This document shows positions 9,701-61,000 of a stretch of 64,000 nucleotides of DNA, piece after piece (within the stretch, counting starts at the first letter, position 1; every line of letters starts with the position of its first letter). A program made the translations under genes and the position numbers. The notes beneath the pieces are model-generated. The model did not search any database and was not told the DNA's origin. It saw nothing but the letters and a program-made list of their open reading frames with translations. Origin of the DNA: Mya arenaria (lineage: Eukaryota; Mollusca; Bivalvia; Myida; Myidae); NCBI RefSeq assembly GCF_026914265.1, contig NC_069135.1, positions 36,093,756 to 36,157,755 of the forward strand. Direction: 5' to 3'.

Positions 9701-12700
9701 TAATGCATCAGTACTATTGTCGAAAATCTAACCCAGGTATGAAACCGATACTAGAAATCTTGATTAAATGGTCTCACCAAGGTACGAAACCAATCCTAGA
9801 ATAATCTTGATGAAATGGCAATCTCCCACAGAAATGAGACCGCTCATAAGATTGTCGATGGAATCAATGCGCCAAACTCAAACCTTAATCAGTACATGCA
9901 ATACAATATTTTGTGGCTTCAAAACCCTTGTTCCTACTCAATTCCAATGAACTCATCAATTATCACTGACCATTCTATGGCGGTGACCATTCATTGTAAA
10001 CTTCCTTTGCTGTATTGTGTGTCTTTCATCAATAGTCTGCATGGCTTTGCCTCATGACCATCGTGCCATACATGAATGATCCCCTGCCTTATGACCATCG
10101 TGCCGTATATGAATGATTCTCTGCTTTATGACCATCGTGCCATACATGAATGATTCCCTGCTTTATGACCATCGTGCCATACATGAATGATCCCCTGCTT
10201 TATGACCATCGTGCCATACATGAATGATTCCCTGCTTTATGACCATCGTGCCATACATGAATGATCCCTTGCCTTATGACCATCGTGCCATACATGAATG
10301 ATTCTCTGCCTTATGACCATCGTGCCATACATGAATGATTCCCTGCTTTATGACCATCGTGCCATACATGAATGATCCCTTGCCTTATGACCATCGTGCC
10401 ATACATGAATGATTCTCTGCCTTATGACCATCGTGGCATACATGAATGATTCCCTGCCTTATGACCATCGTGCCATACATGAATGATCCCCTGCCTTATG
10501 ACCATCGTGCCATACATAAGTGATTGCCTGCCTTATGACCATCGTGTCATACATGAATGATTGCCTGCCTTATGACTATCGTGCCATACATGAATCATTC
10601 TCTGCCTTATGACCATCGTGCCATACATGAATGATCCCCTGCTTTATGACCATAATGTCATACATGAATGGTTCTCTGCCTTATGACCATCGTGCCATAC
10701 ATGAATGATCCCCTGCTTTATGACCATAATGTCAAACATGAATGATTCTCTGCCTTATGACCATCGTGCCATACATGAATGATACCTAGCCTTATGACCA
10801 CCGTGCCATACCTGAACGATTCTCTGCTTTTTGACAATCGTGCCATACATGAATGATCCCCTGCCTTATGACCATCGTGCCATACATGAATTATTCTCTG
10901 CCTTATGACCATCGTGCCATACATGAATGATTCCCTGCCTTATTACCATCGTGTCATACATGAATGATTCCATGTCTTATGATCATCGTGCCATACATGA
11001 ATGATTCCCTGGTCATATTATGGGCATCGTGTCATACATGAATGATTGCCTGCCTTATGACCATCGTGCCGTATATGAATGATTCTCTGCTTTATGACCA
11101 TCGAGCCATACATGAATGATTCCCTGCTTTATGACCATCGTGGCATACATGAATGATCCCCTGCTTTATGACCATCGTGCCATACATGAATGATTCCCTG
11201 CTTTATGATCATCGTGCCATACATGAATGATCCCTTGCCTTATGACCATCGTGCCATACATGAATGATTCTCTGCCTTATGACCATCGTGGCATACATGA
11301 ATGATTCCCTGCCTTATGACCATCGTGCCATACATGAATGATTCCCTGCCTTATGACCATCATCCATACATGAATGATTCCCTGCTTTATGACCATCGTG
11401 CCATACATGAATGATCCCTTGCCTTATGACCATCGTGCCATACATGAATGATTCTCTGCCTTATGACCATCGAGCCATACATGAATGATCTTCTGCCTTA
11501 TGACCATCGTGCCATACATGAATGATTCTCTGCCTTATGACCATAGTGACATACATGAATGATCCCCTGCCTTATGACCATCGTGCCTTACATGAATGAT
11601 CCCCTGCCTTATGACCATCGTGCCATACATGAATGATTCTCTGCCTTATGACCATCGTGGCATACATGAATGATTCCCTGCCTTATGACCATCGTGCCAT
11701 ACATGAATGATTCCCTGCCTTATGACCATCGTGCCATACATGAGTGATTGCCTGCCTTATGACCATCGTGCCATACATGAATGATTGCCTGCCTTAAGAC
11801 CATCGTGCCATACATGAATCATTCTCTGCCTTATGACCATCGTGCCATACATGAATGATCCCCTGCTTTATGACCATCGTGCCATACACGAATGATCCCC
11901 TGCCTTATGACCAACGTGTCGTACATGAATGATTCTTTCCTTATGACCATCGTGCCATACATAAATGATTCCCTGCTTTATGACCATCGTGCCATACATG
12001 AATGATCCATTGCCTTATGACCATCGTGCCATACATGAATGATTCTCTGCCTTATGACCATCGTGGCATACATTAATGATTCCCTGCCTTATGACCATCG
12101 TGCCATACATGAATGATTCTCTGCCTTATGACCATAGTGCCATATATGAATGATCCCCTGCTTTATGACCATCGTGCCATACACGAATGATCCCCTGCCT
12201 TATGACCAACGTGTCATACATGAATGATTCTTTGCCTTATGACCATCGTGCCATACATGAATGATTCCCTGCTTTATGACCATCGTGCCATACATGAATG
12301 ATCCCTTGCCTTATGACCATCATCAATACATGAATGATTGCCTGCCTTATGACCATCGAGCCATACATGAATGATTTTCTGCCTTATGACCATCGTGCCA
12401 TACATGAATGATTCTCTGCCTTATGACCATAGTGCCATATATGAATGATCCCCTGCTTTATGACCATCGTGCCATACCTGAATGATCCGCTGCCTTATGA
12501 CCATCGTGCCATACATGACTGATTCTCTGCCTTATGACCATAGTGCCATATATGAATGATCCCCTGCTTTATGACCATCGTGCCTTACATGAATGATCCC
12601 CTGCCTTATGACCATCGTGCCATACATGAATGATTCTCTGCCTTATGACCATCGTGCCATACATAAATGATACCTTGCCTTATGACCACCGTGCCATACC

Positions 12701-15700
12701 TGAACGATTCTCTGCTTTATGACCATCGTGCAATACATGAATGATCCCCTGCCTTATGGCCATCGTGCCATACATGAACCATTTTCTGCTTTATGACCAT
12801 CGTGCCATACATGAATGATTCTTTGCCTTATGACCATCGTGCCATACATGAATGATTCCCTGCTTTATGACCATCGTGCCATACATGAATGATCCCTTGC
12901 CTTATGACCATCGTGCCATACATGAATGATTCTCTGCCTTATGACCATCGTGGCATACATTAATGATTGCCTGCCTTATGACCATCGTGCCATACATGAA
13001 TGATTCTCTGCCTTATGACCATAGTGCCATATATGAATGATCCCCTGCTTTATGACCATCGTGCCATACACGAATGATCCCCTGCCTTATGACCAACGTG
13101 TCATACATGAATGATTCTTTGCCTTATGACCATCGTGCCATACATGAATGATTCCCTGCTTTATGACCATCGTGCCATACATGAATGATCCCTTGCCTTA
13201 TGACCATCATCCATACATGAATGATTGCCTGCCTTATGACCATCGAGCCATACATGAATGATTTTCTGCCTTATGACCATCGTGCCATACATGAATGATT
13301 CTCTGCCTTATGACCATAGTGCCATACATGAATGATTCTTTGCCTTATGACCATCGTGCACTACATGAATGATACCCTGCCTTATGACCACAGTGCAATA
13401 CGTGAATGATTCTCTGCCTTATGACCATCGTGCCATACATGAATGATTCCCTGCCTTATTACCATCGTGCGATACGTGAATGATTCCCTGCCTTATGATC
13501 ATCGTGCCATACATGAATGATTACCTGGTCATATTATGGGCATCGTGTCATACATGAATGATTCCCTGCCTTATGACCATCGTGCCATACATGAATGATT
13601 CCCTGCCTTATGACCATCGTGCCATACATGAATGATCCCCTGCCTTATGACCATCGTGCCATACATGAATGATTGCCTGCCTTAAGACCATCGTGCCATA
13701 CATGAATCATTCTCTGCCTTATGACCATCGTGCCATACATGAATGATCCCCTGCTTTATGACCATCGTGCCATACACGAATGATCCCCTGCCTTATGACC
13801 AACGTGTCGTACATGAATGATTCTTTCCTTATGACCATCGTGCCATACATGAATGATTCCCTGCATTATGACCATCGTGCCATACGTGAATGATTCCCTG
13901 TATTTTGACCATCGTGCCATACATAAATGAGTCCCTGCCTCATGACCATCATGCCATACATGAATTATTCTCTGCCTTATGACCATCGTGCCATACATGA
14001 ATGATTCTCTGCCTTATGACCATCGTGCCATACATGAATGATTCTCTGCCTAATTACCGTCGTGCCATACGTGAATGATTCTCTGCCTTATGACCATCGT
14101 GCCATACGTGAATGATTCTCTGCCTTATGACCATCGTACCATACATAAATGATTCACTGCCTTATGACCATCGTGCCATACATGAATGATTTCCTGCCTC
14201 ATGACAATCGTGCCGTACATGAATGATTCCCTGCCTTATGACCATTGCGTATAATTGTCTGCCTTATGACCATCGTGCCATAAATGAATCATTCTCTGCC
14301 TTATCACCATCGTATCATACATGAACGATTCTCTGCCTTATGACCATCGTGTCATACGTGAATGATTCCCTGCCTTATGACCATCGTGCCATACGTGAAT
14401 GATTCTCTGCCTTATGACCATCGTGCCATACGTGAATGATTCTCTGCCTTATGACCATCGTGACATACGTGTATGATTCTCTGCCTTATTACCGTCGTGC
14501 CATACACGAATGATTATCTACCTTATGATCATCGTGCCATACGTGAATGATTTTCTGCCTTATGACCATTGTGTCATACGTGAATGATTCTCTGCCTTAT
14601 TACCGTCGTGCCACACACGATTGATTATTTGCCTTATGACCATCGTGCGATACATGAATGATTCCCTGCCTTATTACCATCGTGCAATACATGAATGATC
14701 CCCTGCCTTATGACCATCGTGCCATACATGAATGATTCTCTACGTTATGACCATCGTGCCATACAAGAATGATTCTCTGCCTTATGACCATCGTGCCATA
14801 CCTGAATGATTCTCTGCCTTATGACCATCGTGCCATACCTGAATGATTCTCTGCCTTATGACCATCGTGCCATACCTGAATGATTCTCTGCCTTATGACC
14901 ATCGTGCCATACATGAATGATTCTCTACCGTATGTTCATCGTGCCATACAAGAATGATTCTCTGCCTTATGATCATCATGCCATAACTGAATGATTCTCT
15001 GCCTTATGACCATCGTGCCATACATGAATGATTCCCTGCCTTATGACCATCGTGCCATACATGAATGATTCTCTGCCTTATGACCATCGTGCCATACATG
15101 AATGATTCTTTGCCTTATGACCATCGTGCCATACATGAATCATTCTCTGCCTTATGACCATCGTGTCATACCTGAATGATTCTCTGCCTGATGACCATCG
15201 TACCATACATGAATGATCCTTTGCCTTATGACCATCGTGTCATACGTGAATTATTCCCAGCCTTATGACCATCGTACCATACCTAAATGATTCCCTGCCT
15301 TATGACCATCGTGCGATACATGAATGAGTCTCTGCCTCATGACCATCGTGCCATACCTGAATGATTCCCTGCCTTATGACCATCGTACCATACATGAATC
15401 ATTCTCTGCCTTATGACCATCGTGCCATACATGAATGATTCCCTGCCTTATGACCATCGTGCCATACATGAATCATTTTCTGCCTTTTGATCATCGTGCC
15501 ATACATGAATGATTCTCTGCCTTATGACCATCGTGTCATACCTGAATGATTCTCTGCCTGATGACCATCGTACTTAACATGAATGAGTCTCTGCTTCATG
15601 ACCATCGTGCCATACATGAATTATTCCCTGTCTTATGACCATCGTGCCATGTAAGAACGATTCTCTGCCTTATGACCATCGTGCCATACATGAATGATTC

Positions 15701-16784
15701 TCTGCCTTATTACCGTCGTGTCATACATGAATGATTCCCTGCTTTATGACCATCGTGCGATACATGAATGATTCTCTGCCATATGACCATCTTGTCATAC
15801 ATGAATGATTCCCTGCCTTATTAACATCGTGCCATACCTGAATGATTCTCTGCCATATGACCATGGTACCATACAGGAATGATTCCCTGCCTTATGACCA
15901 TCGTATCATACAAGAATGATTCTCTGCCTTATGACCATCGTGCCATAAATGAATGGTTCTCTGCCTTATGATCATCGTGCCATACATGAATGATTCTCTG
16001 CCTTATGACCATCGTGCCATACATGAATGATCCCTTGCCTTATGACCATCGTGCCATACATGAATGATCCCTTGCCTGATGACCATCGTGCCATACGTTA
16101 ATGATCCCTTGCCTTATGACCATCGTGCCATACATGAATGATCCCTTGCCTTATGACCATCGTGCCATACATGAATGATTCCCTACCTTATGACAATCGT
16201 GCCATACATAAATGATTCTCTGTGGCTGGGCTTGCCCTTTGGTTTCACTTATTCCTAAAATAAAAATCCTTGACATACAATTTGCAAGATAAACTACAGC
16301 GTCGATAAACTCACCAAACTTCTTTCCTAGATATCGTACGATTGCTGCAGACTGACAGAACTTCCGGCCGTCTATCTCCAATACCGGAAGTGCCTTCATC
16401 GGCTGTTCTGTGGAGAAAGAATATTGAAAATGAAACGGTACGATAATACTGTAGAAATTCGCTATCCCGAAGGGAAAAAGACTTCGAGTCAACATAATTC
16501 CGAGATATCCATCATCGCACCCACCTCGGTACGTATTTTACTTGAAAATGAAACAATGTTGCGAATTGCCATGATCTGATATGTAGTCATTTATTTGTTT
16601 ACCTTTTTTCTGAACATTTTAACTAAAACAATGCTCGCTACTTAGACCAACCTTCTTTAATCCCGGGCCATTGATCCATCGGTATTCGAACATCCTCGAA
16701 CTCCTGTCCAGCCTGCTTAAACACGAGCCGTGCAAATTCCGCTGTACCTCGGGCATCAAAGTAGGTCAGCTTATAGGATGGCAT
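3774..16784 (-). CDS. Sigma-like glutathione S-transferase, 5 exons
   Basis: Cytosolic GST with a sigma/HPGDS-like pattern; such enzymes conjugate glutathione to electrophiles or isomerise prostaglandin H2, and the exact substrate cannot be read here. Exons on the minus strand are 16784-16652, 16407-16315, 9251-9133, 7115-6996 and 3950-3774; summed they give 642 nt, about 213 residues, normal for the family. The N-terminal thioredoxin-like domain carries the catalytic-type Tyr in 'YKLTYFDARGTAEFAR' (residues 4-19), the cis-Pro segment 'KALPVLEIDG' and 'SAAIVRYLGKKFG'. The helical C-terminal domain includes 'GYYVG' and 'VTVADLGIYYMM'. Introns 2, 3 and 4 are swollen by three unrelated minisatellites. 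Exon 3's expected acceptor reads TG and exon 4 has no in-phase GT donor, so the gene may use unusual junctions or be decaying. Confidence 0.85.
4040..6310. repeat. 42-bp trinucleotide-derived array in GST intron 4
   Basis: About 50 units with the core 'actagtgcctctactacc' and an ACT/ACA-rich remainder, with 27-, 42- and 45-bp unit variants. It is open for about 800 codons on both strands (poly-Val/Ala/Glu one way, poly-Leu/Pro the other), a trivial result of its three-base periodicity. It fills nearly all of intron 4. Confidence 0.92.
6304..6834. repeat. Compound microsatellite (TAC)n, (TGC)n, (GAT)n
   Basis: Pure TAC to about 6374, TGC/TAC mixtures to about 6610, then a long ATG/GAT run to about 6800 and a short TAC tail to 6834. 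It continues directly from the 42-bp array and stops about 160 bases from GST exon 4. Confidence 0.95.
6996..7115 (-). CDS. GST exon 4, 3' boundary uncertain
   Basis: The acceptor 'cattgtttcag' is good. It encodes 'LELVKKFKEETFPLYSSF' and ends near 'GEDGYYVGK'. To stay in phase with exon 5 the exon must end at 6996 (ACG|GCACGT, a weak GC-type donor). The nearest GT (6991-6990) gives phase 1 and would shift exon 5 out of frame. Confidence 0.75.
7433..7506 (+). repeat. tRNA-like SINE head
   Basis: The segment has a box A-like 'tagcacagtgaata' and a box B 'ggttcgaaccc' about 40 bases apart, typical of a Pol III internal promoter. The ends do not pair as an acceptor stem, so it is not a tRNA gene. 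A T-rich stretch follows. No second copy was seen in this window. The rest of 7116-7922 (intron 3) shows nothing recognisable. Confidence 0.5.
7923..9066 (+). mobile_element. MITE family C copy expanded by an internal minisatellite
   Basis: The ends match the family C copy at 43915-44321: left 'acaagacaccagatgatcc', right 'tagtccctttaa', both with TTAA. Flanking internal parts also match (left 'tcctcaaaacataagactag', right 'agcgcataatgatttcccg'). The core between them is replaced by the array at 8020-8955. It sits in GST intron 3. Confidence 0.8.
8020..8955. repeat. 33-bp minisatellite inside MITE C, about 28 copies
   Basis: The units read close to 'ccccttaacatgattaaaag' plus 'aataatcaataca'. 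Unit sequence resembles the unexpanded core of family C ('attattaaaataataaaagc' at 44030-44050), suggesting the array arose from that core. A fragment 'aaattcgggctccatttg' at 8750-8767 also occurs at 17578-17595. Confidence 0.88.
9133..9251 (-). CDS. GST exon 3 with a TG instead of AG acceptor
   Basis: Family alignment puts the junction so that KKFG continues into 'LMGSDEEEGLVVDELMEVF'. That start (9251) is in phase with exon 2, but the intron ends in a pyrimidine/G tract '...gtttgtttg' and not AG. The next upstream in-phase AG would start the exon at 9281 and add ten residues in a segment that is normally ungapped. The donor AAAAAG|GTAGGA at 9132 is canonical. Confidence 0.75.
9320..9694 (-). 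mobile_element. MITE family B copy
   Basis: Ends 'taaagatgcactcttattcc' and 'aataagagtgtcactttaa' match four other copies in the window (17638, 39974, 55394, about 62345). Short inverted termini lie beside TTAA. It is in GST intron 2. Between 9695 and 10043 nothing recognisable was seen. Confidence 0.8.
10044..16221. repeat. 37-bp minisatellite, about 167 copies, in GST intron 2
   Basis: The unit is close to 'cttatgaccatcgtgccata' plus 'catgaatgattccctgc', tandem for 6.2 kb. There is higher-order structure: a three-unit cycle (tccctgcttt, tcccttgcctt, tctctgcctt; 111 bp) near 10225-10430, and longer duplicated blocks (for example 11761-11942 matches 13651-13831). Units decay toward the right, where ctg/gtg variants of 'catacatg' are common. 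The array stops only 94 bases from GST exon 2. Confidence 0.95.
16315..16407 (-). CDS. GST exon 2 (glutathione-binding segment)
   Basis: Acceptor 'ttctccacag' and donor TTTG|GTGAGT are canonical; phase 1 at both ends. Encodes 'EQPMKALPVLEIDG' and 'QSAAIVRYLGKKF', the cis-Pro loop and the SAAI-type glutathione contact of the family. Confidence 0.88.
16652..16784 (-). CDS. GST exon 1 (start codon and N-terminal strand)
   Basis: Starts with ATG at 16784 and encodes 44 residues beginning 'MPSYKLTYFDARG', then ends AAAGAAG|GTTGGT in phase 1. The Tyr within 'LTYFDARG' aligns with the glutathione-activating Tyr of sigma GSTs. No upstream in-frame start was seen. Confidence 0.88.
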
Positions 16785-25000: not shown

Positions 25001-28000
25001 TTTTCATTTCAAATGATAACAAAATTGGCTGAACAGTGTAAAGCCTCATTTTATTTTTAGTTCTTCCAAAATGTACTTAACAAATATCTTTATGTGGAAA
25101 TTTGGTTCCATTCATTTTAGGTAAAATTTGTCTTCCAAAATAGGACTTCGTAAAACGAATGAAAAACGAATAAATAAAGAGTGTTAAAAGACATCTAATT
25201 ATATAATAAAAGAGCTATAGAGACTCATCGGTACTCTTATAATCAAACGCTGTCCCATAAACCGAATTGTTATGGCTTAAACACGGAATAAAACAGATCA
25301 TTTCAAAAGCTAAACATACGGAGCGAATGTGGTAATTTGAGTAAAGAACAACACGAAATAGATGAAGGAAAAATTGCAATAAACTGAATAGTTTTAAGTA
25401 CCGTAGCCCCAAGCGACAGCGATGCACTCAAAGAAGATGAGGAGGAGAAGACAGAGGCCGCTGGCCGCGTAAAAGTCAAACAGCTGGTACATGTACATAC
25501 CACCCTGGAACAGGTTTTAAAATTTAAATCTAACTATAACATGAACTCCATAGTAAATTGTTTCCCTTGCCATGCTTTGTACCTTTTTAGAATAGTCTGC
25601 TTTGTAAAACGTTTTAGTCATCTTATTTATAAGTTGTGTCAACATATCAGCATTCAAATTAATACTGTTTTCTTTCGATTTAACTGTTTTTTCCTATTCC
25701 TTTTAGAATAATCAAAATGGTCATAGAAAGTATATTTGCTAGTTAATGGGATTGCACATACGTCTAAGGCATCCAAAAACTTGTTAAATGTATAATGTAT
25801 AATCTCTATATATAAACATTGTTGGCAAATAATTTATATGCCATAATGGAGTTTTATTATTGGCAAGTTTCCGTTTAGAGAAATTAACAAAAACACATGA
25901 TATGAACGGAAATTTGAAACTCAATCATGAAATGAATAATTGATGTCATGCATTTAATTATATTAGAGACAGCAGCCACACCTCAGTGACGCAGGACAGC
26001 CCCACGATATAAGACATGAAGCAGACGACACCGATAAAGATCTCGCGCCTCTTGGAGAACAGGGACGGGAACTCATCAATCAGAGCAGTGAAGAACCCCT
26101 CCATTGTCACAAACTAAAAAACAACAACAACGAAAAATGGATGGTCATATGCTTGCAATTCTAAAAAGGAAAAATATCACAAACACTTTCACAAAAGCTC
26201 TGTTTTTTGTGCAAATCTGGGGCATTTATTTCAACAGACCGCCCGAGTTAGCACGAAAATCTGGAACTACAAGTTTTTTTCGATACTATGGTGACAAGTC
26301 CTTTTCCTATAAAGATTATCCTCTACAGACAAGAGTCAAACCTGGATTAAGTGGCCACCTATAGGAGAAGGTCAAAGTGGTTGCTTTCGACAGATGGCCA
26401 CTTAATTCAGGTTGGAAATTTCCGCCACGTAATCTTTGTACTGCATTATTCTGTTCAAATTATTTTTTGTAAACTCTTAATTATACTGGGTGAACTGTAA
26501 TTTGTTACCTGACTGTCTAGTCCCAACATGAGGAGCATGAGGAAGAAAAGAACGGACCAGAGGGGCGAGATGGGCAGCTGCACCATTGCGCTCGGGTAAG
26601 CCAGGAAGGTCAGTCCTGGACCTGCAAGTTAAGCCCAGAACATTCAATATCTGTCAAAATTATATATTTCAAACCTATGTATTTTACAACGACTGTGAAA
26701 CAAGTTATTAGAACATTATACGTATTAATCACGCTCGTGGGCAACATGTTATGCGAGAATGTTGTCTTGTGTTAAAGGGGAAACCGGAGTACCCGGAGGA
26801 ACCCCATTTGTTCGGCTTGGTGACCACCAGCCAAACTCACATGCCCCCAGGCCGGGAATCGAACCCAGGTTTTCTAGCTGAGATATGAGTGCGCTAACAA
26901 CTAACAATACTCGTAAAATAATAACATAAAATCTAGACAAAAGTAAACACGAAATAAATAATGATACGCACCAGAAGCGGCAACCTCGCTGACCGGAAGT
27001 CCTTGTTCTCGTGCCATGAATCCGATGACAGAGAATATAACGAACCCGGCAAACAGGCTGGTACAGCTATTCAGAATTGAAATACACACAGCATCTCTGA
27101 AATTTAAAGATCATTACAAAGGTGATAAGTATACAGTAAGTATGTCTAAAATAATTTTATTGTACGATTGTTCAGTCTTTATCTAGGTCAATGAAATCAG
27201 AAACCATTAAACCAATATAAAATAACTGGTAAAATTATATCAACAATATTAAGCCGTCGACCGTGAGTTTTTTTATCAGGGTAGTACAAGCGTGGATTAT
27301 ATTCACGTCCTCGTGGACATTTGCTAGATCATCGGTCGTGTTACAACAAAATAACATATTTTAATGTTTTAAAGGGAGGCAAACGCGAACACGGTTGAGG
27401 AACTTTTGATGGTTATCGATAAACACAACGACTTATTAGCAACGTTGTCATTCACTATTCGACAAAGTAATAAAGCGGCGTATTTGTTTTCTAAAATGTT
27501 GAACAATTAACAACAATTTTGACATCAAGCGTTCGAAGTATTTCTTTACTTTGGAGCATACATTTGTTCGTCTTGCTACGCGTTCTGTTTTAAATATTTT
27601 AACTTGTAAAATCATGAAAAGGAAGCGTATCAATGATTCGTACATACACAAGAGATAATACCTGTAGAAAGTTCATGCTCAGTAAAAGTGTAAAGGTGGG
27701 ATGGAAAAATGAATTGGCAACCCGGTTTCTTATATGAAAGTCATCGTCGGTCGAGTGCTATGTATCTCTAATACAAGCAACGATAATTGATAAGTCCCAC
27801 TAATAATGTGTTCCGCACGTATGATATTTGGACATTATGTCCGGGTGCCAATATTTAATGATTAAACCGTGTGATATTTGAAACGGTCATACCTGTACAC
27901 CAGGTATTAAGGAAATGAGAGAACGACGTACACTTTGAATGTTCAAGAGGTTGGTTAACGGTTCGATTTGTTAGATGATTTGAATTACCTGACATTAACG

Positions 28001-31000
28001 AAAGAGAACAATTTTTTTATGAACATATGGGAGTTTTTGTTGAACGCATTAAATCTGCCAAAAACGGCCGAGTCTTTTGGTGAAGGAAACTCATGAACGG
28101 TTTTCATAAGCACAATATAGGAAGACGTCAATAACCTAAAATTTATGAAAGGGAATGGAAAGTCACAAATCAATTTTAAATGTTTGTGTGGAACTTGTTG
28201 TAGCTACAAGGTCCGGCCATCGATCCAATACCGAGCCCATGGGATGAAAATACTTAGCGAAAATTCATTGGCGATTTTCATTCGCACGATATAAGAAGTT
28301 GTAAATAACCTGACCTTTACGAAAGGGAACAAAACAAAACACTTTGTAATTGTAGATGTTGTTTTGGAAAATGTTGTGGCTACCAAGTGAGACCAGCGAC
28401 CCTAGGTCGAGCCCGTAGGAGAAGAAGACTCATTGGGGATTTTCATTCACACGAAATAGTAAGATGTGAATAACCCGACCGTGACGAAAGGGAACCGAAA
28501 ACCACTATATACTTAAAGAGGATGTTGCGGAACTTGTTGTAGCTACCAACTAAGACCACCAACCCCTAGCCGAGCCCTTAGGAGAATACAATTCATTGAG
28601 GAGTTTCATTCGCACGAAACTAAAAGATGAAAATAACATATATGGAAGGGAAAGGAAAATACAATGAACATGACTCAATGAACATGACTATTGTATATGT
28701 TGGTGTGGAACTTGTTCAAGCTACAAAGAACAACGATCCTTTAGTAGAAGTAAATTCATTGGCGATTTTCATCAGCATTCATTTAGATGTGAATAACCTG
28801 AAATTAACGAAAGGGGACGGAAAAACGCAAGGTAATTGTATATGCTGTTGTGGAAAATGTTGTAGCAACAAAGTACGATCAGTGACACTAGTCCGAGCAC
28901 GTAGGAGAATAAAAAAATATTAGGGATTTTCATTCGCACGAAATCCGACGTGAATAACCTGATCTATGCGAAAGGGAACGGAAAAACACAATGAAATGAT
29001 AAATTTGGGCTCGGAACATGTTGAAACTACCAAGTGCGATCAGCGACCCTAAGCCCAGCCCGTGGGAGAAGAAAATACATTGGGGTTTTTCATTGCACAA
29101 CATATGAAGATGTGAATAACCGGACCTATACGAAAGGGATCGGACCCCCCCCCCCCCCGCCCCCTCTATATACTTGTAGATGTTGTTTCTGAACGTGTTT
29201 TAGCAACCAAGGGCGACCAGCGACCCGAGGCCGAGCCCGTCAGAGAAAAAAAAACTTATTAGGGATTTTCATTCGCACGAAACACGAACCTATACGAAAG
29301 GGATCGGGGAAAAACACTATATACGTGTAGATGTTGTTTCTGAACGTATTGTAGCTACCAAGAGCGACTAGCGACCCAAGGCCGAGCCCGTCGGAGAAGA
29401 AAACATATTGGGGATTTTTATTCGTACGAAATAAGATGTGAATAACCTGATCTATACGAAAGGGGTCGAGAAAAAAACCCACTATATACTTGTAGATGTT
29501 GTTTCTGAACTTGTTGTAGCTACTAAGAGCGACCAGCGACCCTAGGTCGAGCCCGTCAGAGAAGAAATTTCATTGGCGACTTTCATTCGCACGAAATAAG
29601 AAGGTGTGATTCACCTGACATATACGAAATGGAACGGAATAAACTCTATAAATATGTAGATGTTGTTTTGTCCAGAACATGTTGTAACTATTTAGTGCGA
29701 CCATCGACCCTAGGTCGAGCCCGTAAAAAAAAGAAATTTCATTGGCGACTTTTATTCGCTCGAAATAATAAGGTGTGAATGACCTAAAATATACGAGAGG
29801 AAATGGGAAAAACACAATATACTTGTAGATGTTGTTGTGGAACTTGTTGTAGTGCGATCAGCGAACCTAAGCCGAGCCCGTAGGAGGTGATTTTCATTCG
29901 CAAGAAATAAGAAGATGTAAATAAATTGAACTATACGAAAGGGAACGGAAAAAACACTATATACTTGTAGATGTTGTTGTGGAACTTGTTGTAGCTACCA
30001 AGTGCGATCAGCGAACCTAAGCCGAGCCCGTAGGAGAAGAAGATTTGAGTGACCGCGTCGATCCATACCTAAAAGGGAATAACCACAATTTAACTTTAAC
30101 ATCTTATTAATTTTGCAACGATTATAAAATATGTTATAACAACAGGTCCCTAATTACTTTCATGATAATGGTGTTACGCTAGAATGTGGTATCATTCTAA
30201 CCAAGTAAACCGAGTTCATGGTGGACACCCACTTCTCCGGCTTTGTCAAGAAGACTATATTTGAAGGTGGGAATGAACTAGTTGTATAGGTGCTCGCCTC
30301 TAACATATTGAGTCTGTGGGCTCGATCAAATAAGTGGCTACTTAAATTTGCCTTCAAAAAATCGTTCTTTAATGAAAACGAATAAAGGTGAAGTCGCACT
30401 TACAACAATTAATAACGTTTCCAAATAATTTCAGCATTGTTATGTTTATAGAATTATGTTTACTGGTTGTCGGTTACGTAGGGAAAAGTAGGACACGATG
30501 CTCGGTTCTGATCATATAAATCAAAGATAATTAGCCAACACTTACACTTGAGTTCTTGATCTTCTCGAAGTCTGGAAGTAGGTAGAACTTGATGCCGTCC
30601 ATGGCCCCGGGGAGGGTCACACCTCGTATAAGCAGTATTGACATTAGGATGTAGGGAAACACCGCGGTCACGTATACGACCTGTTGGTGGAGAAAACAAT
30701 GAAAGTTATCGTATATCAATCGTGTCAAATGAATCACCATAAGGCTCCGCTTAGGCTGATCCTTTATTGTGGAAGGGTGTCAATGCACTTAAAAGTTAAA
30801 TGCAATGCATATACCATATCCAGGCATGTATCGATATCGTTTTGAATAATTAAAAATTAAAGTAACTACAGTCAAAACCTGTTGTGTCGAACTCCCAGGG
30901 ACCTTGAGCCACGGGGAGTTCGAGCCAAGCGGGAATGCTTACAATTAGTATAAAGAGTTCGGTTCTTTACATCCAGTTCGAGCCAACGAGGTAATCGAGC

Positions 31001-34000
31001 CAAACGAGTTCGAGCCAACGGGTTTCGACTGTATATCTTATAATCGTAACATACAAGTATAGACTTTGGTTTGTCCACTTATTACAACACTTATGTTTTA
31101 TGTGTTCTTAATGTATCTTTGCTTATGTTTGCTTTATCTCTTTCTTAATCAACTTTACATCAGCATCGTTTCCTATTAACTTAGTAGTTGGCATTAATGT
31201 ATCCGCAAATCACCTTTCCTGTCCATTTGATTCCTTTCCAGATACAGAAGTAGCACATGATCCAGACCGCCGCTAGACAAAGTGCGAGCTGCCACCGTAT
31301 AGCGCCCGGCTCGTCTATACCGGACGAAATCTGCAGCACGTAACGTCTGCAACACATGCCACATATCAAGATTATCTGCGTATTATAATGAACTTAACAA
31401 CTGTCAAAATGTGTCTATATATTTCGGACCAGGGGGTTGAAGGGGTGGGATGCAAGCTTATTTACCCTCGCAATTGGGTTATAGCCATTCGGTGAGCACA
31501 TTTCTGACGATATTTTGGGGGTTTCTTTTATGTAACCAATGTATAGATAGAACAATCCTGATTCCTCGGCGGCTTTAACAACTACAGTCAAGCCTGTATT
31601 ACATGTAAGTGGTCACACTGGGGAAAAGGTCGAAGTGGCTGCTTAAAACAGGTGGCCACTTTATCCAGGTTGGACCTTTTTTTGGTAATGACTTGCATCA
31701 GTTACATTCCTGTACAATGACTGTTAATTAGGCCATTTTTTTTCGACAAGCGTATTGCTTCACAAAAGCCATAAAGGGAGTACGAATCCTGCATCCGGAT
31801 GTTATTTAAAGGGAAAAATGGAATTGGTGCGGTAAAATATAGAACGATATGTTCGAAACAATTGTTGACGATGACAACGAATGACCACTGGTACCGGATT
31901 ATTTGAAACTCAAGTAAAAGAAAACCCACACAAAAACCCGTATAATTCCTAACTAAAAACTACGATGCAAAACATGTGAAAAATATTGAAATATTCTTTT
32001 TTCATAAATATTTTATTTGTACTGTCTATAAAGTACAAAGTTATTAGTTGTGAAAAAACAACAATACTATTTTTTCAATACATCCGGTGCAAGAGCGAAT
32101 GACTTGCAATACTTACCTTGGGTCTGTTTTAATAAAGGAATTCGTAACTTCAAATATCTAACATTCTTATGCTAGAACGTCACACCTATCAATATTCATC
32201 TTTAATTCTGAGAGAAGTTCAATTCACTCAAATATAAAATAAAACAACGAAAACACTACGACTTATTTGAAACAGGCCACTAAACCTTAAAACTGATTTG
32301 TATAACGATACATGATCCGTATTTAACGGACTGTGAGCGGACAAGTTATTTAAAAATAACACTTTGGCATAAAATAGTAAATATATTGGGTATTTTGGCC
32401 ATAAAAGACAGGTTTAGGATAAAAAAAAATAATTCTTGTTTGTACAGAAGAGCTGCTCATTGGGCTAGTGTTAGTAAATTATTATTTATCTGAATTTAAA
32501 TGAAGAAAATTGAGTCCTGAATCATGTATCTTGACGCTCTAATGCCTTTCGTTGGCAAGGGAGATCTCAATAACCAAAAATATGAACTTTATGGTCATTG
32601 GTTGTTGCTAGTTCTGTTTACTTGGCGACCTGTTTAAATGTCTGAATGCTAACGACTCTCCCTGTTCCTAACTTCACTACTTACATTCAGAACACCTCGG
32701 CCATTTTTCATCGAAAACAACCTCTGACAATGTCAGAAATCTGTACGTTTCACTATGCTGCAAGTAGATCGCGTAGTAGTTTCAATTAAGCAGTTAAGCT
32801 TAATGACTTTACTCTTTGGAATCATAAGTATTTATGCAATAATACACTTCAATGGCAATCAATTTAGACTTAGTGCGACACAACACACGTTAGAACACTG
32901 CAATTAATTAATCTATTATTTAAAAAAATGCACTACTTCTACTGATGTACCGGCATACATCCGAGGTTGTTTTCGACGGAAAATGGCAAGGAGTTCCGAA
33001 TACACTACTTACTCCCAGAATTCACGGACAGGCGATGTGTACTTGGTGCCATCGTAGTACTGCTTGCAGGAAAACTCACTTACATTTCCATACATTAGCG
33101 ATATATTTGAATAGTCGGTTTTGTTCACCTGAAAGAAGACGCGCATAATGAAACAGAGTTGAAATGAACAGTCTTCTTCATACCTATTTTAGAAATCGGA
33201 CTCAATGCCCTTGCCTCTCGCTGAGAAAGATTTCAAGTGGTGTAACACAATTATTAACAAGAACAATGGCAAATAGAAACTGTGGAGCATGTTTTCTACA
33301 TTTTGTGTACACAGTCAGAAACAACGCCCTTGCAGTTGAGCTGTTTCAGTTGAGCTGTTATGAAATAATTTACAAGTGCAATAACAAAAAGAAAACTGTG
33401 GAGTGTGTTTTCTACGTTTTGTCAAAAATCAGACCCCACACTGCGCTTATGTTGTTCCAGGCCATTTACTTTGCAAATAGGATCTGTGTGGAAAGCATAG
33501 TCATACATGTCAACAAGAGCAAGCCAATATTTGAAACTTAAGTACACACAGAACATGGAGAAATAGTGTTAAAGGGACTAGACACCAGATGATACAGTTG
33601 CAAGAAAAAACAACAACAAAAAATGTAAAAAAAAACCTTACATTAAATTGATATCGTTGTGTAAAACACAATACTCTTACTTACTGGTGTACCCCATCGC
33701 TTTCGCGGTTTTGTGCATTTGAATAAAGGAAAGAATACTCGAAAATTGTCAAAAAGTTACATAAAATTAATATCGTTGTGTACAACACAATACTCTACTT
33801 ACTTTCGCGGTTTTTGTGTATATTTTCCAAATCGAAATTAACTGGGCCACGAAAATCCCAGTAAATTTAAAAATGGGGCCGGTATATGTATCTATACTAA
33901 TCACGTGACGTTCACACACTAAATATAAACACTATAAACTGGGAGACCATTGTGCGCTCTTTTCAAAACTCAACAACACAATATTGTTTTAATTAGAAAA

Positions 34001-35358: not shown

Positions 35359-37444
35359 TATAATAACAACAACTTTATTTAACGAAGGTTACATACTAAG
35401 TGTACAATCATTACAGACATACTACTTATTTCCAGCATGGCCTTCACACAAAAAGTATTACAAAAACACATATACTAAGTTACATATTAAGCAACATACA
35501 AAACATACAATCACACTATCACTATCATACATTTCTTCGACAAACACAACTTAGTTTAATAAAATGATTATAAATTACAATAAGTTCATACTGTAAGTAA
35601 TGTAGATATATTCGGTAAAACCACATTCAATCAATATATTTTCAACATTTACATATTTGGTAGTACAATGAACTACATGTATTTATTATAATGTGAATTA
35701 AATAAAGTGTCAAGATTTTTTTTCATGTGATAAAATTATTCTGCCAATAAGTAGCCTTTTAATGCATGTTTAAAGGCTGGTAGCTTATCTTGACATTAAA
35801 TGTATGTAGGAAGAGAATTTCAAATTTTCATTGCTTTATAGGCAAATGTAGTTTTGATATAGTTTGTTCTAGGTTTTACAACAAAAATATCCTTGTTTTC
35901 TGAAGAACGCAAGCTATAGTGCTCATTTTTGGCAAATGTTAACAATTCTGTGAAGTACGAAGGAGTCAAACATTTCATGCTTTTGAAAACAAGTAATGAA
36001 AGATGATAATAGCACCTGTCTTCAAAAGATAGCAACCCTGACTGTTTGAATATGTTTCCACAATGGCTAGTTCCCGACTTCATTATTAGCTTAATCGCTC
36101 TTTTCTGAATATTAGTGATTTTTGTGGTATCTGAGGAATGTGTTAGTCCCCAGACACTACAACAGTACTCAATGTTTGACATGATAATTATATGCATTAT
36201 AATACAATAATTTCATCTCATCTGTTAGATGATATGCTATTCTTCTTAGAATTGCCAATTTTGAATTAAACTTATTCACTACAGTCTTAACATGTGTATG
36301 CCATGACAATGTCTGATCAACATGCACCCCGAGGACCTTTTGACATTTCACGTTTTCTACTGACAATCCATCTATTGATAGTTCAAGTTACAATGCATTT
36401 TTGCCTTATAATTAGTACATAGAATCATACATTTGGTTTTTGATGGATGGATTGACATATTATTTGTCTTACACCAACAGTTCACGCTATTAAGACTTTT
36501 TTGTAGATCTGATTGAATGCTCAATATACTTGGACCTATTTTGTATAACGTGGAATCATCTGCATATAAGTCAATACATGAGTTGGAAGAAATTAAAGGC
36601 ATATCATTGATGTATATTAGAAAAAGTAAGGGACCGAGTATTGATCCTTGAGGGAAACCCGACCTAGTTTTCATTTTCTCAGAATTAATGTTGTTCCCTT
36701 TCACAAATTGCATCCTGTTAGTAAGATAGGACCTAAATAACTTCATAGACCTTTCTATGAAGTGATAAAGTTTAAGTTTGTGTAAGAGTATTTCATGGTC
36801 AACTAAGTCAAATGCTTTTCGAAGATAGAGATAAATGGCCCCCACATAATCACCACTGTCTATTCATCAGAGCTTTGATAATGATATTTCTGTGGTGCGC
36901 ATATCATCATCACTCTGGTATACGAGAATGTTGCTATTATGTTTGGTAATTGTTTGCTAAATATAAAGACAGCTGCAAGGATGAAACACAACCGGAGTAA
37001 AATATATGCATGTAATTATTCATATAATCATAGTGACAACAGTTGGAAAAGTTTGTGAATAAGAATTGCTACGTTCAAGGGGAGGACATTTGGTGAATTT
37101 GGTCAGAGCTGACAGTTTTAGAGCAACAACACCACAGTAAATAGTGCGATCTCGGTGTCACTCGAACTTCGTCAGGATAGAACATCTTACGCATGGGACT
37201 TAAAAATGGTCGTTCATATGGGGTTACAACGTTATTTTGTATACCTAAGTTGTGTTCTAATTAAATCAACGCGAGATTATTTAACCAATTATATACGACG
37301 TTAAAATTACTGCATCGGCTGTTTCTGTTTTAATACATATAACATAGAACCTTTCATTAACTAATATTAAAATTATGTTAAAGGCCTAGTTTAAGCTTTC
37401 TATAAGTGAACCCCCCCCCCAAAAAAAAAAAATAATAAAAAAAT

Positions 37445-42510: not shown

Positions 42511-45500
42511 TTTTTTTTTAATTATAATTATTAAAGAGAAGTTGCAGGTTTAAATGTACGGCTACGCCAAAGGGCACCAAAAAAAAAATGTCCTGAAATC
42601 GGAGAATAAAACCTTCACGGTATAAGATTACACCAATTACTGTGATAAAATCGGTTCAGGCAAGGAAACAATATATCACTACAGATAAGCCCCGCAAGAT
42701 CTACACTTTTAGATGTAGGCAAATTCTTAATGTCATAATTATTTCCTCAGATGTTTATATCCTGGAACATGTGTTTTCTTAAGAAATGAAAAAAAAGAAG
42801 ATTTTTTTATTATATTTTTAAATTTGTAAAAATGATCGTCAAAATGCTTTTATTGAAAAAAAATGTCTTTCAAAAATAACAATGCCATTGATATGTAACA
42901 GAATCGGTTCCCAGTTAAACTACTCGGCATATCTATATAACAACGGTGAGGTATATAGTAGTTTTGGAATACACTGTCCGTCCCTCTGTATGTTCAAGCT
43001 ATGACTTGAATTTTGATTGAACTTCACATATAGTATAGAGCACCATGGGAAGGTGTGTCCAGGATAAATTTCGTGCCCTATTGTCACACGTGGTCTGATA
43101 TCAATGTTGTACAATACATTGTCTATGCATTTTATAGCAAAATTTGCAGAATTTGTAAAAGTTGAGCTTTTTTAGGGCCTTTCACAGAGCAAAAGTCGTT
43201 TGAAGGACCAAAACAAAAAAAAATGTTTAAAGAATTCATATAATTTATTTCTGAGTTTCAATATTCAGCAAGCATAATATGTACATACATCCGTTGCAAC
43301 ATGTGTAGCTGTTATTAGGAGTTGAGCAAATTTTACGGAAGCAGATTTTATCAGATTTCTTATCAAAACGGATTGGCTTTTTCAGGAAATGTCTGTATTA
43401 ATATTGAATATGTTTTAAAAATAGCCAGAATAACTACCATGTCAACAATGTCTTGTTGGTGATTGCAACCAAATAAGACTGCTGTCAAAATTTTAGATCG
43501 CAGTTTTTCATATTTATGTTCGAAACTTGATGTTTTATTTATGGCTAATAGCGTTCCATTCCATTGAAGGAAATTGATTGCAGCTATGATATCAGTTTAA
43601 TAAAAGACGTTTAATATACATTGACATAATAAGGTGTTAACCGATTACCTCGAAAACTCTGTTATACCCATTATCTTACGATTTTGTTCCTCATTTTCCA
43701 AAATAAAACAATGGGAACCAAACTAATATCGCGTTTATATGCCGAACATTTACCGATGTGGGCAAATTTACCAACGTACCGCCGAGGGTAAATTTATTTA
43801 CCCCAATTGGGCAATTTGCGTTCAGATGCACATATTTGCTCTCAGTGGTAAATCTCGCCATATCATCAGCATAAACGATATACGCGTCCGTACAAATAAG
43901 CTTTCACACTATTTTTAAAGGGGTAAGACACCAGATTGTCCCAAATTCGGCAAGTATATTTTATCCTCAAAACAATCCTAGAATTGTCAATGCGAGCAAG
44001 TACAAGACCGATTATACATCATTTTACATTATTAAAATAATAAAAGCAACGATTATTTTGCTGCCTCATCTTTGTTTCACCGTTTAAAAAAGAGCGCATA
44101 ATGGTTTCCCGGTTTAAATCATATCTGATAATTATACAGACGCTATATGAATTGTAAAAATGCGCAAAGAATCAAAAGATACATGTCTTGTAAGCAATAT
44201 GATACATCAGTAATAAAGATTAAAATTTAATGCGTTGTATACTACGATGTCAATATTATATAAGTTTTTGACATTTCTCTTTTCTTCTTGCAATATTATC
44301 ATCTAGTGTCTAGTCCCTTTAGTACCTTTGTCATGTAATGGTGGGTACCAATGTCAGTTAATTAGCAGCAATAGATTGATTTCAATATCAGACAAGTATC
44401 AGCAGAGTTATTGTCCTTGGTTTAGCAAACAAGTAGTATTTTCACCCTGCACGGTATCACCAATTTAAAATTATTACCGACACGTTCCTGAATATTACAA
44501 AAAATGTTAGTCTAGAAGTTGTTTCCATACAATTACTGTTGATCAGTTTTAAACGAGGGCCAAAATATTACAAGAGGAAAGGTCATGAATTAACGGTAGG
44601 TCATTTTTAAACGTATCGAATTATCACTAAAAAATGACCCTGGGGGCTACATTTTCAACTGGGTAAAATGTAATGTTTCATAGTTTATCACATATGCTTT
44701 AATGCCTGAGGTCCATGAGCATAAACCAATGATGTTACACCGGCAAACACATCGTCAGGTAAAGTAAGAGGGCCAGAAACGCCCCCTGCCGAACACCAAT
44801 AATAAGATATGTACTTGTAAGTGTATACAGACTAAAATTGTGTTCATTTAAAGTACATACATAGAAATAACATTGTCAGTTGAACTTGATCCAATTTCGA
44901 ATTACAGGTAAAGGATCGGGAAAGGGGTGAGACTTCATAACTATGCATACCGTTTTCCATATTTAACATGCGAATATTATTCTGATTTTCACAACCGCAG
45001 ATACATGTTTTACGTCGACAAGAGACCACGTTGGAAAACCTCCGAAAATAGGACCAAGCGGGAGAACATTTTACAACTTATGTTTTTATATTTAAATTAT
45101 AAAAATTGTTATATGTTTTACTGTTGTTTATATGCAAGATGTATGGATATTAAAACTAAAAATCTCTTACGGTGCGTATTCACAGAAGTATGTATATACA
45201 GTTATTATATTTATACAGTCGAACCTTGTTGGCTCGAACTCGCTTGTCTCGAATTCCTCGTTGGCTCGAACTGGATCATTATACTGAAGGTAAGCATTCC
45301 CGCTTGGCTCGAATTTTCCGAGGCTCGATGTATATTTCGCCGGTCCCTGGGAGTTCGAGCCAACGGGGTTCGACTGTATATCAAATTCATTTGAAAGTTG
45401 TTATTACTGCCTGTTAAGATTCTTACCGCCGCCATTCTTGTAACAAAGGTACGGAAACCGTGTGACATTCCCAAGTCCTATACACTGTCCTACGCAAGAC

Positions 45501-58000: not shown

Positions 58001-61000
58001 AGCTCAACCAGAAACATACCACGGAATCAAAACAATACTTTATACATAGTTTCACATACACCACAGTTTGTCTCTTTTTTTTTATTTTTTCTTACAGACG
58101 CAGGGGGGCTTCCATTATCACTGAACTGTACACGTCGAACCTTCCATCGCTCCAATTTCACGATAGGCACAACGTTTGCTCACTCCGCTCATTCTTAATC
58201 ATGAAGATTTTTATTCATGTCATCTAAATACTACATATTCCTCGTGGTACAATTCCCTAAAACTCGAACCGACATATATAACTGATATCGGTTCGAGATC
58301 ATAAAATAACAATTGCATGCATTATACAGTAAAAATTAGGATTTCTCGCAATGTATTCGAGTGTTTTCATGAACATATGAAGACACGAAAGCAAAGAAGT
58401 AAAAATACTATATATGTTATTCTCCAAATTTGAGAGCAGTAAAACAATCGAACATTCCTTGTACTTTTTCTTATTCGTCACGATTAAAATTAGTTAAATG
58501 TTTTGTCGCTTAGTATTTATTATATAGCGGTTGTGTTTGAAATAATAGTCGGTACATCGTGAACAGTTGGTTAATAGACGTCACGTTAATCAACTCAGGG
58601 CCGGTTAATAGACGTCACGTTAATCAACTCAGGGCCCTTATTTGAACTATAAGCTTTTATTTCTGGGTCACAAGCCCATTGGTACGTTTTGATATATTAT
58701 GTATGTTTGTATTAAATTCCTGTCGGAAAAAATAGCTCATTGAGCGTATGTTTATTGGTAACATATACCAGACTTTAAATAAAAATTCTTGTGTCTTGTA
58801 TCTTGTGCGTAATATTAAAATTAATAATGACGTATTAAACGTTTGTGGACGTCAAGTGGTATCGATACAACAATTTAGATAAAAGAAATATGTGCTTATA
58901 ACCGTAAATCCCGAATAACCAAGCTTAGTGCATGATCTTTAAATAAACCGTGAATAAGTGGACAGTCGGCAACTTTCAAAGATAGAATAACACGCCATAT
59001 TGACCTATCTGTGTATATACATAATAATACAAAAAATTCATGTTCCTTGTTCATAATGCCTCGAAATATCATAAAGCTGACGGCTATCAATGATTTTTTT
59101 TCGTCCATACGACAGTATGTTTCACAGCTAATAAGTAAATAAGTGTATGATAGCCCCGATTGTTCAGAACTTTGCTAAAGTTAACAACCTGATTATTTAA
59201 CGACATCATTGTTAACTTTTAAAGGTGAACTATTTGATGATATGCTCATATATTTAAATAAAACAAGAACAGCTGAAATAGTTGTCTCACCTCTTGTTAG
59301 GAACACTGCATATCATAAGTGTATCTGTGAAACTTACAGAGCAATATTAATTTGAAAGTTAACAATGATGGCGTTAACAACATTGTTAACTATAACAAAG
59401 CTCTGAACAATCAGCCCATGGAGTGTTAACTGAGAAGTAATTTGACAAAGACCAGAAACAGTTGTCTCACCTCTTGTTAGGAACACTGCAAATCATACGT
59501 AGATCTGTTAAACTTACAGAGTATTATTGATTGGAAATTTAACGACGATGACGTTAATACCGTTGTTAACTTTCACAAAGTTCTGAACGATCGGCCCAAT
59601 TGTTTTGTCTTAATTTGGAACATTCCATTGCACTTTCACAGATTGAACTTTTTTACAACTTTTTTTATTTTTTGTCTTGGAATTAGCCAATTTATACAAA
59701 AATGCATGGAAACCAGTGATATAAGACTGATGACCAAAAAAAAAACCCAGATCGCAGATTGTCATATTTAAGTTCAAAAATTGATGTTTTATGCATTTTT
59801 CTTAAACCGTTAGTAACGGTTTAAGCCATAAAACATTAATTTTTGAACGGAAATATAAGAATCTGTGATCTGATCTTTTGTCAGCAATCTTTTATCATTG
59901 GTTTGCAGATATTCACGCGAATACTATATACACATAGCATATTTGTTAAGGTCTTTACATTGAGGTTATGATATTTTATGCACATAGCATATATGTTGGT
60001 CGTTGCATTGTTATATTATACAAATACAGTCGAACCCCGTTGGCTCGAATTCGCTTGGCTCGAATTCATCGTTGGCTCAAACTGGTTGTAAAGGACCAAT
60101 TTCTTTATACTATTTGTAAGGATTCCCTCTTGGCTCGAATTTTTCGAGTTTCGAGACTCGAAGTATTTTCGCCGGTTCCTGGGAGTTCGAGCCAACGAGG
60201 TTCGACTGTATTGTAATTTCATATCCCGGTAATAGATGTAATAATCAACCTTCATCTCTAAGATCCCAGAATTGTTCTTTTGTCTTCTTCTTCTTCACAT
60301 TGACGTTCTGAAGTTTCTTTAGAAGACTTGCACTCCCCTATGAATGGACAAAAAAAACACGTTGAAATAAGAAAGAGTAATCTATAAATAAAATCAGGAG
60401 ATAATTAGTAGAGAGGAATGGCGTTATAGGATTGATCTTTTAGAACTTAGTTATCTAAGTGTGTGGGATTTTCTGTTATACAACAGCCAGTAATAAACTA
60501 GGAGAAACAGCGATAATTACTGTATATAAAGTTAATATCCATCCCTTCTATTTTGTTGTTTCTTATATTTTAGAACAAATGCACTCCGCATTCATAAAAT
60601 TGATGTTTTATAACGCCCAGTGCACCGGTTCTAAGATGTTTACATTCTCAATAGAATGTAACATGATTTTTGAAGCTGCACTCTCACAGATTTACCGTTT
60701 TGACAGCTTTTTAATTTTTTGTCTTGGAATGAGCCAATCTTTCGTAAATATCTGTAAACCAGTGATATAAGACTGCTGACAGAAGAGCAGATCGCAGATT
60801 TTCATAGTTCCGTTCGAAAATTAATGTTTAATGATTAAAAGCGTTACTAACGGTTTAAGAAAAAATGCATAAAACATCATTTTTTTCAACCTACATATGA
60901 AAATCTGCGATCTATGGTTTTAGTTAGCAGTCTTATATCACTGGTTTCACATTTTCGCCTAAATTGGCTCCTTCCAAGACAAGAAAATAAAAAAGTTGTC

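Follow-up and report, generated by a model that had tools for sequence, protein, structure and literature searches.

We analyzed a tandem array inside a transporter gene of Mya arenaria, working from the DNA sequence of one haplotype in a 64,000-nucleotide stretch of contig NC_069135.1 (hereafter the window; positions are counted from its first letter). The gene is a minus-strand SLC6/GAT-1-like gene, and 12 head-to-tail units in the same orientation, 11 of them strong and one degenerate, follow its exon 7 within intron 7. The array is most likely a neutral intronic minisatellite that was born from the gene's own exon 7 plus the adjoining intron. A conversion tract, which is fairly recent, has about the length of the shared exon part and ends behind the donor, joins exon 7 and the nearest unit.

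Exon 7 (29965-30068, minus strand), which codes for transmembrane segment 6 (TM6) and serves as U0 of the array, is 104 nt long, begins in phase 0 and ends two bases into a codon. Its acceptor is TTTTAG/GTATGG and its donor CTACAA/GTATAT, its junctions and frame fit those of exons 6 and 8, and a tblastn search with human GAT-1 gives 86% identity over 35 residues (E 4e-15). Because this identity extends over the whole length of the exon, including the part that is missing from the units, the exon is ancestral and the units are its copies, as an earlier note on this DNA had proposed.

The array was picked up by Tandem Repeats Finder (TRF), by general repeat finding and by nhmmer, and it extends from 29964 down to about 27973, with the units and the gene both read on the minus strand. 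Specifically, an nhmmer search with a query of one period (exon plus intron) revealed 13 places including the exon, with 11 units, numbered U1 to U11 outward from the exon, at E 3e-9 or better (U8 = 3e-9) and U12 (28087-27973) at only E 0.06. A profile built from U0-U11, which match it by construction, recovered the excluded U12 at E 7.3e-7; the next match in the window had E 7.5, so that this profile found no further unit copies elsewhere in the 64 kb, and on three shuffled windows it gave nothing better than E 3.1. This confirms the earlier count of about twelve units behind exon 7 in its own intron. All of these units lie inside a single intron, as expected of an intronic minisatellite, and the unit crosses the exon-intron border. 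The anatomy is thus that of a minisatellite and not that of a tandem-exon array, the defining features of which were looked for and not found.

The units measure 147-178 bp, with the far cut of U12 being arbitrary. In most of them about 77 of the 104 bp of the exon are present, from about TTCTTCTCC on, followed by the donor and an intron tail of 62-89 bp; the exon parts of U1, U8 and U12 are shorter. The earlier note had called these half-exon units with some 90 bases of intron, usually the donor region and never the acceptor half. The 3′ portion of the exon is indeed what was copied, but it amounts to three quarters rather than half, and the tails are those given above. As for the donor region, GT is retained at the aligned place in 6/12 units, GTATAT in 5/12, and the exact 9-mer of exon 7 in 3/12 (U1, U3 and U5). 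When the acceptor part (the 5′ quarter) of exon 7 was sought in the unit tails no clear trace was seen, with 10 of the 12 tails behaving like shuffles (p > 0.16), but the other two reach p 0.03, uncorrected.

Copying of this kind is confined to exon 7 in this gene, as a search of the window with the 12 other exons and their 80-base flanks revealed no array in their introns; their remaining matches are short (at most ~74 bases) and scattered, with several lying in the flanks. No inverted repeats of at least 20 bases were found in 27700-30400, and no known RNA families or tRNAs were found in the window by Rfam (gathering scores) or ARAGORN. A role of the array as structured RNA was rejected on folding z scores of -0.88 and 0.92 in two 128-base stretches.

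The evidence for conversion comes from the comparison of U0 with U1 (29742-29888, minus strand). The exon part of U1 exhibits no differences from exon 7 at 63 aligned sites (gaps aside), whereas its array-type tail differs at 17 of 76 sites from the 76-bp intron tail of U0 that lies directly behind the real donor (29889-29964, minus strand). The Fisher p for this contrast is 2e-5, three of three further alignments gave 2.5e-5, and the ten corresponding exon/tail comparisons of exon 7 with each of U2-U11 all gave p > 0.2. The longest matching run between U0 and U1 covers 59 polymorphic sites, while 2000 permuted maxima never exceeded 47; the global permutation p of 0.0005 over 78 pairs is the floor of 2000 permutations, and the next run, U0-U3, has p 0.47. 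At the sites that set U0 apart from most of U2-U11, U1 carries the exon state at four of four exon sites (30020, 30015, 30008 and 29979) and the array state at four of four tail sites. Exon 7 and U1 therefore share an identity tract that shifts abruptly to normal divergence, which is the pattern of conversion.

A conversion tract fits these data best because duplication of a whole unit would leave the tails equally alike. U1 keeps a GTATAT donor. Its reading frame is disrupted by an 8-bp deletion, so selection at the protein level on U1 does not explain the identity. The transfer most likely ran from exon 7 to U1, given that the shared tract encodes the conserved TM6 unchanged; a reverse transfer from U1 to exon 7 is possible. 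Exchange between exon and array had been suggested earlier as a route by which units could be swapped into the gene. It is borne out for one unit, with a direction that seems to be from exon to array and not from array to gene.

We also explored how the units diverge from exon 7 and from each other. The distance of the exon part to exon 7 is 0.000 for U1, 0.127 for U10, 0.155-0.232 for U2-U9 and U11, and 0.42 for U12. Exon parts and tails of U2-U11 exhibit similar divergence (0.268 versus 0.280), and stops or indels are present in the exon parts of U1, U2, U5, U8, U9 and U12. The mean Kimura two-parameter (K80) distance among U2-U11 is 0.35 (range 0.13-0.65), or ~0.17 per unit lineage, which would give the array an age of tens of millions of years assuming that each site changes neutrally only a few times in a billion years. 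At such an age, related species should carry the array as well. Adjacent units among U2-U11 are closer to each other than in permuted orders (K80 0.301 versus 0.346, p 0.013). In trees of the units that include exon 7, support is mostly low, the shape is star-like and the branch leading to exon 7 is short.

The claim that similarity falls with distance from the exon, so that the array grew outward, fared less well. The correlation for the exon parts of U1-U12 (Spearman 0.61, p 0.035) is weak and hinges on U1 and U12, as it drops to 0.49 (p 0.12) both for U2-U12 and for U1-U11 and to 0.32 (p 0.37) for U2-U11; the tails of U1-U12 give 0.48 (p 0.11). Outward growth as a steady gradient is thus unsupported, since the gradient rests on the two end units.

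The likely course of events is as follows. A stretch that begins near nucleotide 28 of the exon, crosses the 5′ splice site and takes in ~60-90 bp of intron 7 would have been tandemly duplicated. Growth and turnover of the array then probably proceeded by local unequal exchange or slippage, as suggested by the greater likeness of neighboring units. As far as these data can resolve, neither coding nor splice-site constraint is evident in the decay of the copies, and exon 7 exchanged a tract with its nearest copy fairly recently, in the probable direction given above. The array itself is probably functionless and removed together with intron 7. Several observations weigh against this neutral history. 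Codon positions 1, 2 and 3 of the U2-U11 exon parts vary at 0.234, 0.250 and 0.318, and the higher third-position variation (p 0.08) may reflect weak or past coding constraint. Furthermore, the relation between distance and separation over all lags is not significant (r 0.148, p 0.19), and the other units resemble the U0 tail more closely than they resemble one another, which is not predicted by equal-rate decay. Finally, with five GTATAT unit donors next to a modest real donor, an effect of the units on splicing is possible.

One alternative is that the units act as decoy 5′ splice sites in competition with the exon 7 donor, which would lead to an extended exon 7, an early stop, message decay and less transporter. 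The material for such competition exists in the five GTATAT units, three of which have the identical 9-mer, and splicing from the exon 7 acceptor to any of these five donors leads to an in-frame stop after 45 codons. The real donor is indeed modest, with 6/9 consensus matches relative to 6-8 for nine other in-register donors of the gene (the exon 3 donor was unscored and the exon 5 donor was left out of the comparison). However, no unit donor exceeds the real donor in consensus matches, GTATAT is gone from 7/12 units, and the donor columns have an identity of 0.722 compared with a mean of 0.785 for 9-column windows, 85% of which are as good or better. The five intact GTATAT units are likewise unremarkable, as five intact units or more are seen for 29% of 6-column windows. 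Selection on the unit donors was therefore rejected, the donor columns being kept no better than the rest, and the earlier suggestion of decoy donors finds no support as a selected function. Overall we regard the decoy explanation as unlikely.

A broader version, in which the array is an in-gene reservoir whose TM6 copies convert in both directions with the exon and feed it altered TM6 or 5′ splice-site sequence, while the intact donors tune the amount of productive message, appears quite improbable to us.

We give very little credence to the units being alternative exons, whether mutually exclusive or cassette, with the tail of one unit providing a pyrimidine tract plus AG and the next exon part providing the donor. 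Many tails do contain a pyrimidine-rich tract ending in AG, for example CCCTTTCGTATAG. However, the AG of the main site is kept in only 5/12 units, and when an AG preceded by at least 70% pyrimidines was paired with a GTATATWG donor 40-260 nt away, none of the nine pairs besides exon 7 combined a fitting length modulo 3 with an open frame. Among these pairs, the combination of acceptor, donor and open fitting frame that characterizes mutually exclusive or cassette exons was thus not found. In addition, such exons would replace the initial TM6 residues, and the codon-position bias is not clear. As far as can be judged from the letters, the units show no mark of selection for coding or splicing. 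An assembly artefact or a collapsed repeat is just as doubtful. Tandem arrays are hard to assemble, but the K80 range among U2-U11 is far above read error, the window is without N, and the gene exons are in order on either side. That exon 7 was instead captured from a satellite predating the gene or located elsewhere in the genome is barely credible, as ten units have only 38-77% identity to human GAT-1 (best E 3e-8) relative to the higher value of the exon, U8 and U12 gave no tblastn match, the exon holds the 5′ quarter that the units lack, and there are no copies elsewhere within the 64 kb.

The remaining units, all on the minus strand, were placed by alignment and profile. U2 (29577-29741) has a 4-bp insertion in its exon part and has lost the donor, U3 (29413-29576) retains the exon 7 donor 9-mer, and U4 (29263-29412) reads CAC/GTATAT with GTATAT kept. 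U5 (29085-29262) also has the exon 7 9-mer, together with a stop codon in the exon part (seen by tblastn) and a tail with a minus-strand G-run. The donor is lost in U6 (28926-29084), U7 (28761-28925) and U8 (28604-28760), the last of which has a deletion in its exon part. U9 (28437-28603) reads TAA/GTATAT, again with GTATAT kept, and has exon-part stop codons detected by tblastn. U10 (28262-28436) has lost the donor and is the second closest unit to exon 7 by p-distance despite its place near the far end. U11 (28099-28261) has lost the donor as well, and the degenerate terminal unit U12 (27973-28098) keeps GT but not GTATAT.

In regards to the host gene, tblastn with human GAT-1 placed 13 exons on the minus strand from 45616 to 22417. 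Twelve of these have E values no higher than 6e-7, and a loop exon in fourth place has only E 7.1; the designation exon 7 in the earlier note agrees with our own count provided that this weak exon is real. Membership in the SLC6/GAT-1-like transporters is evident from the exon 6-9 join, which matches Pfam SNF (PF00209) at E 1.3e-76, and from the joined exon pieces, which have GABA (gamma-aminobutyric acid) transporter 1 as their best match in PDB (E 5.4e-129). Exon 6 (30546-30680, minus, coding for TM5) is the upstream neighbor of exon 7, and exon 8 (26972-27096, minus, coding for TM7) is its splice partner after intron 7. Both were placed by tblastn, junctions and frame, and the exon 6-exon 7 and exon 7-exon 8 joins are in frame. 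With its far end set at 27097, intron 7 is 2,868 bp long and the array occupies ~1,992 bp of it. The first exon found (45425-45616, minus) has unusual residues in a conserved motif, namely GNVTRFPY and GQCIGLGN where human GAT-1 has GNVWRFPY and GYAIGLGN.

Several other features were observed in the window. In intron 8, the stretch 26730-26900 on the minus strand includes a B box resembling that of tRNAs (GGTTCGATTCC at 26865) and is possibly a tRNA-derived short interspersed nuclear element; it has no Rfam or ARAGORN match. At 59275-59598 (minus) there are two copies of a 180-bp unit with 84% matches. In each copy an acceptor-like sequence (TATGATTTGCAG or TATGATATGCAG) is followed by 15 bases and a donor-like GTGAGA, an arrangement that is microexon-like and located outside the placed exons. 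A very long array of ~167 copies of a 37-bp unit covers 10048-16222. Short arrays of a common 15-bp motif (AGTTCGAGCCAACG type) are present in both orientations at 30975-31024, 45219-45271 and 60038-60078 and represent a dispersed element. Finally, a stop-to-stop open reading frame of 130 aa at 35820-36212 (minus) has no Pfam match at E 0.001 and presumably resembles the C-terminal end of non-LTR (long terminal repeat) reverse transcriptases.

This array presents a case of minisatellite birth across an exon-intron border combined with sequence exchange with a conserved exon. Its seed is a known and constrained exon, which lets the history of each unit be read against that seed, as most satellites would not allow. 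If unit donors are used, the array would also constitute a natural test of competition among repeated 5′ splice sites.

The array can be compared with several known systems. The variable number tandem repeats in intron 2 of the serotonin transporter gene and intron 8 of the dopamine transporter gene are likewise tandem repeats in an SLC6 intron, but their units are ~17 and ~30 bp and are not known to be exon copies, whereas the present unit measures ~160 bp, roughly half of which is exon. Similar in design is the minisatellite of human IFI6 (6-16), in which the repeat also spans the 5′ splice site of an exon and thereby multiplies the donor, just as the unit here spans CTACAA/GTATAT. However, the IFI6 unit has about a dozen bases and several of its donors are reportedly used, while the present units each contain ~77 bp of exon and 7/12 of their donors have decayed. 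Tandem exon duplications and arrays of mutually exclusive exons similarly have exon copies in a neighboring intron, but these copies are whole exons that have both an acceptor and an open frame, in contrast to the truncated copies observed here, which are without the matching acceptor part. Finally, conversion between a gene and a pseudogene fragment likewise leaves a tract of a working exon shared exactly with a dead copy; in the present case the gene carries the dead copy in one of its own introns, ~80 bp downstream of the exon.

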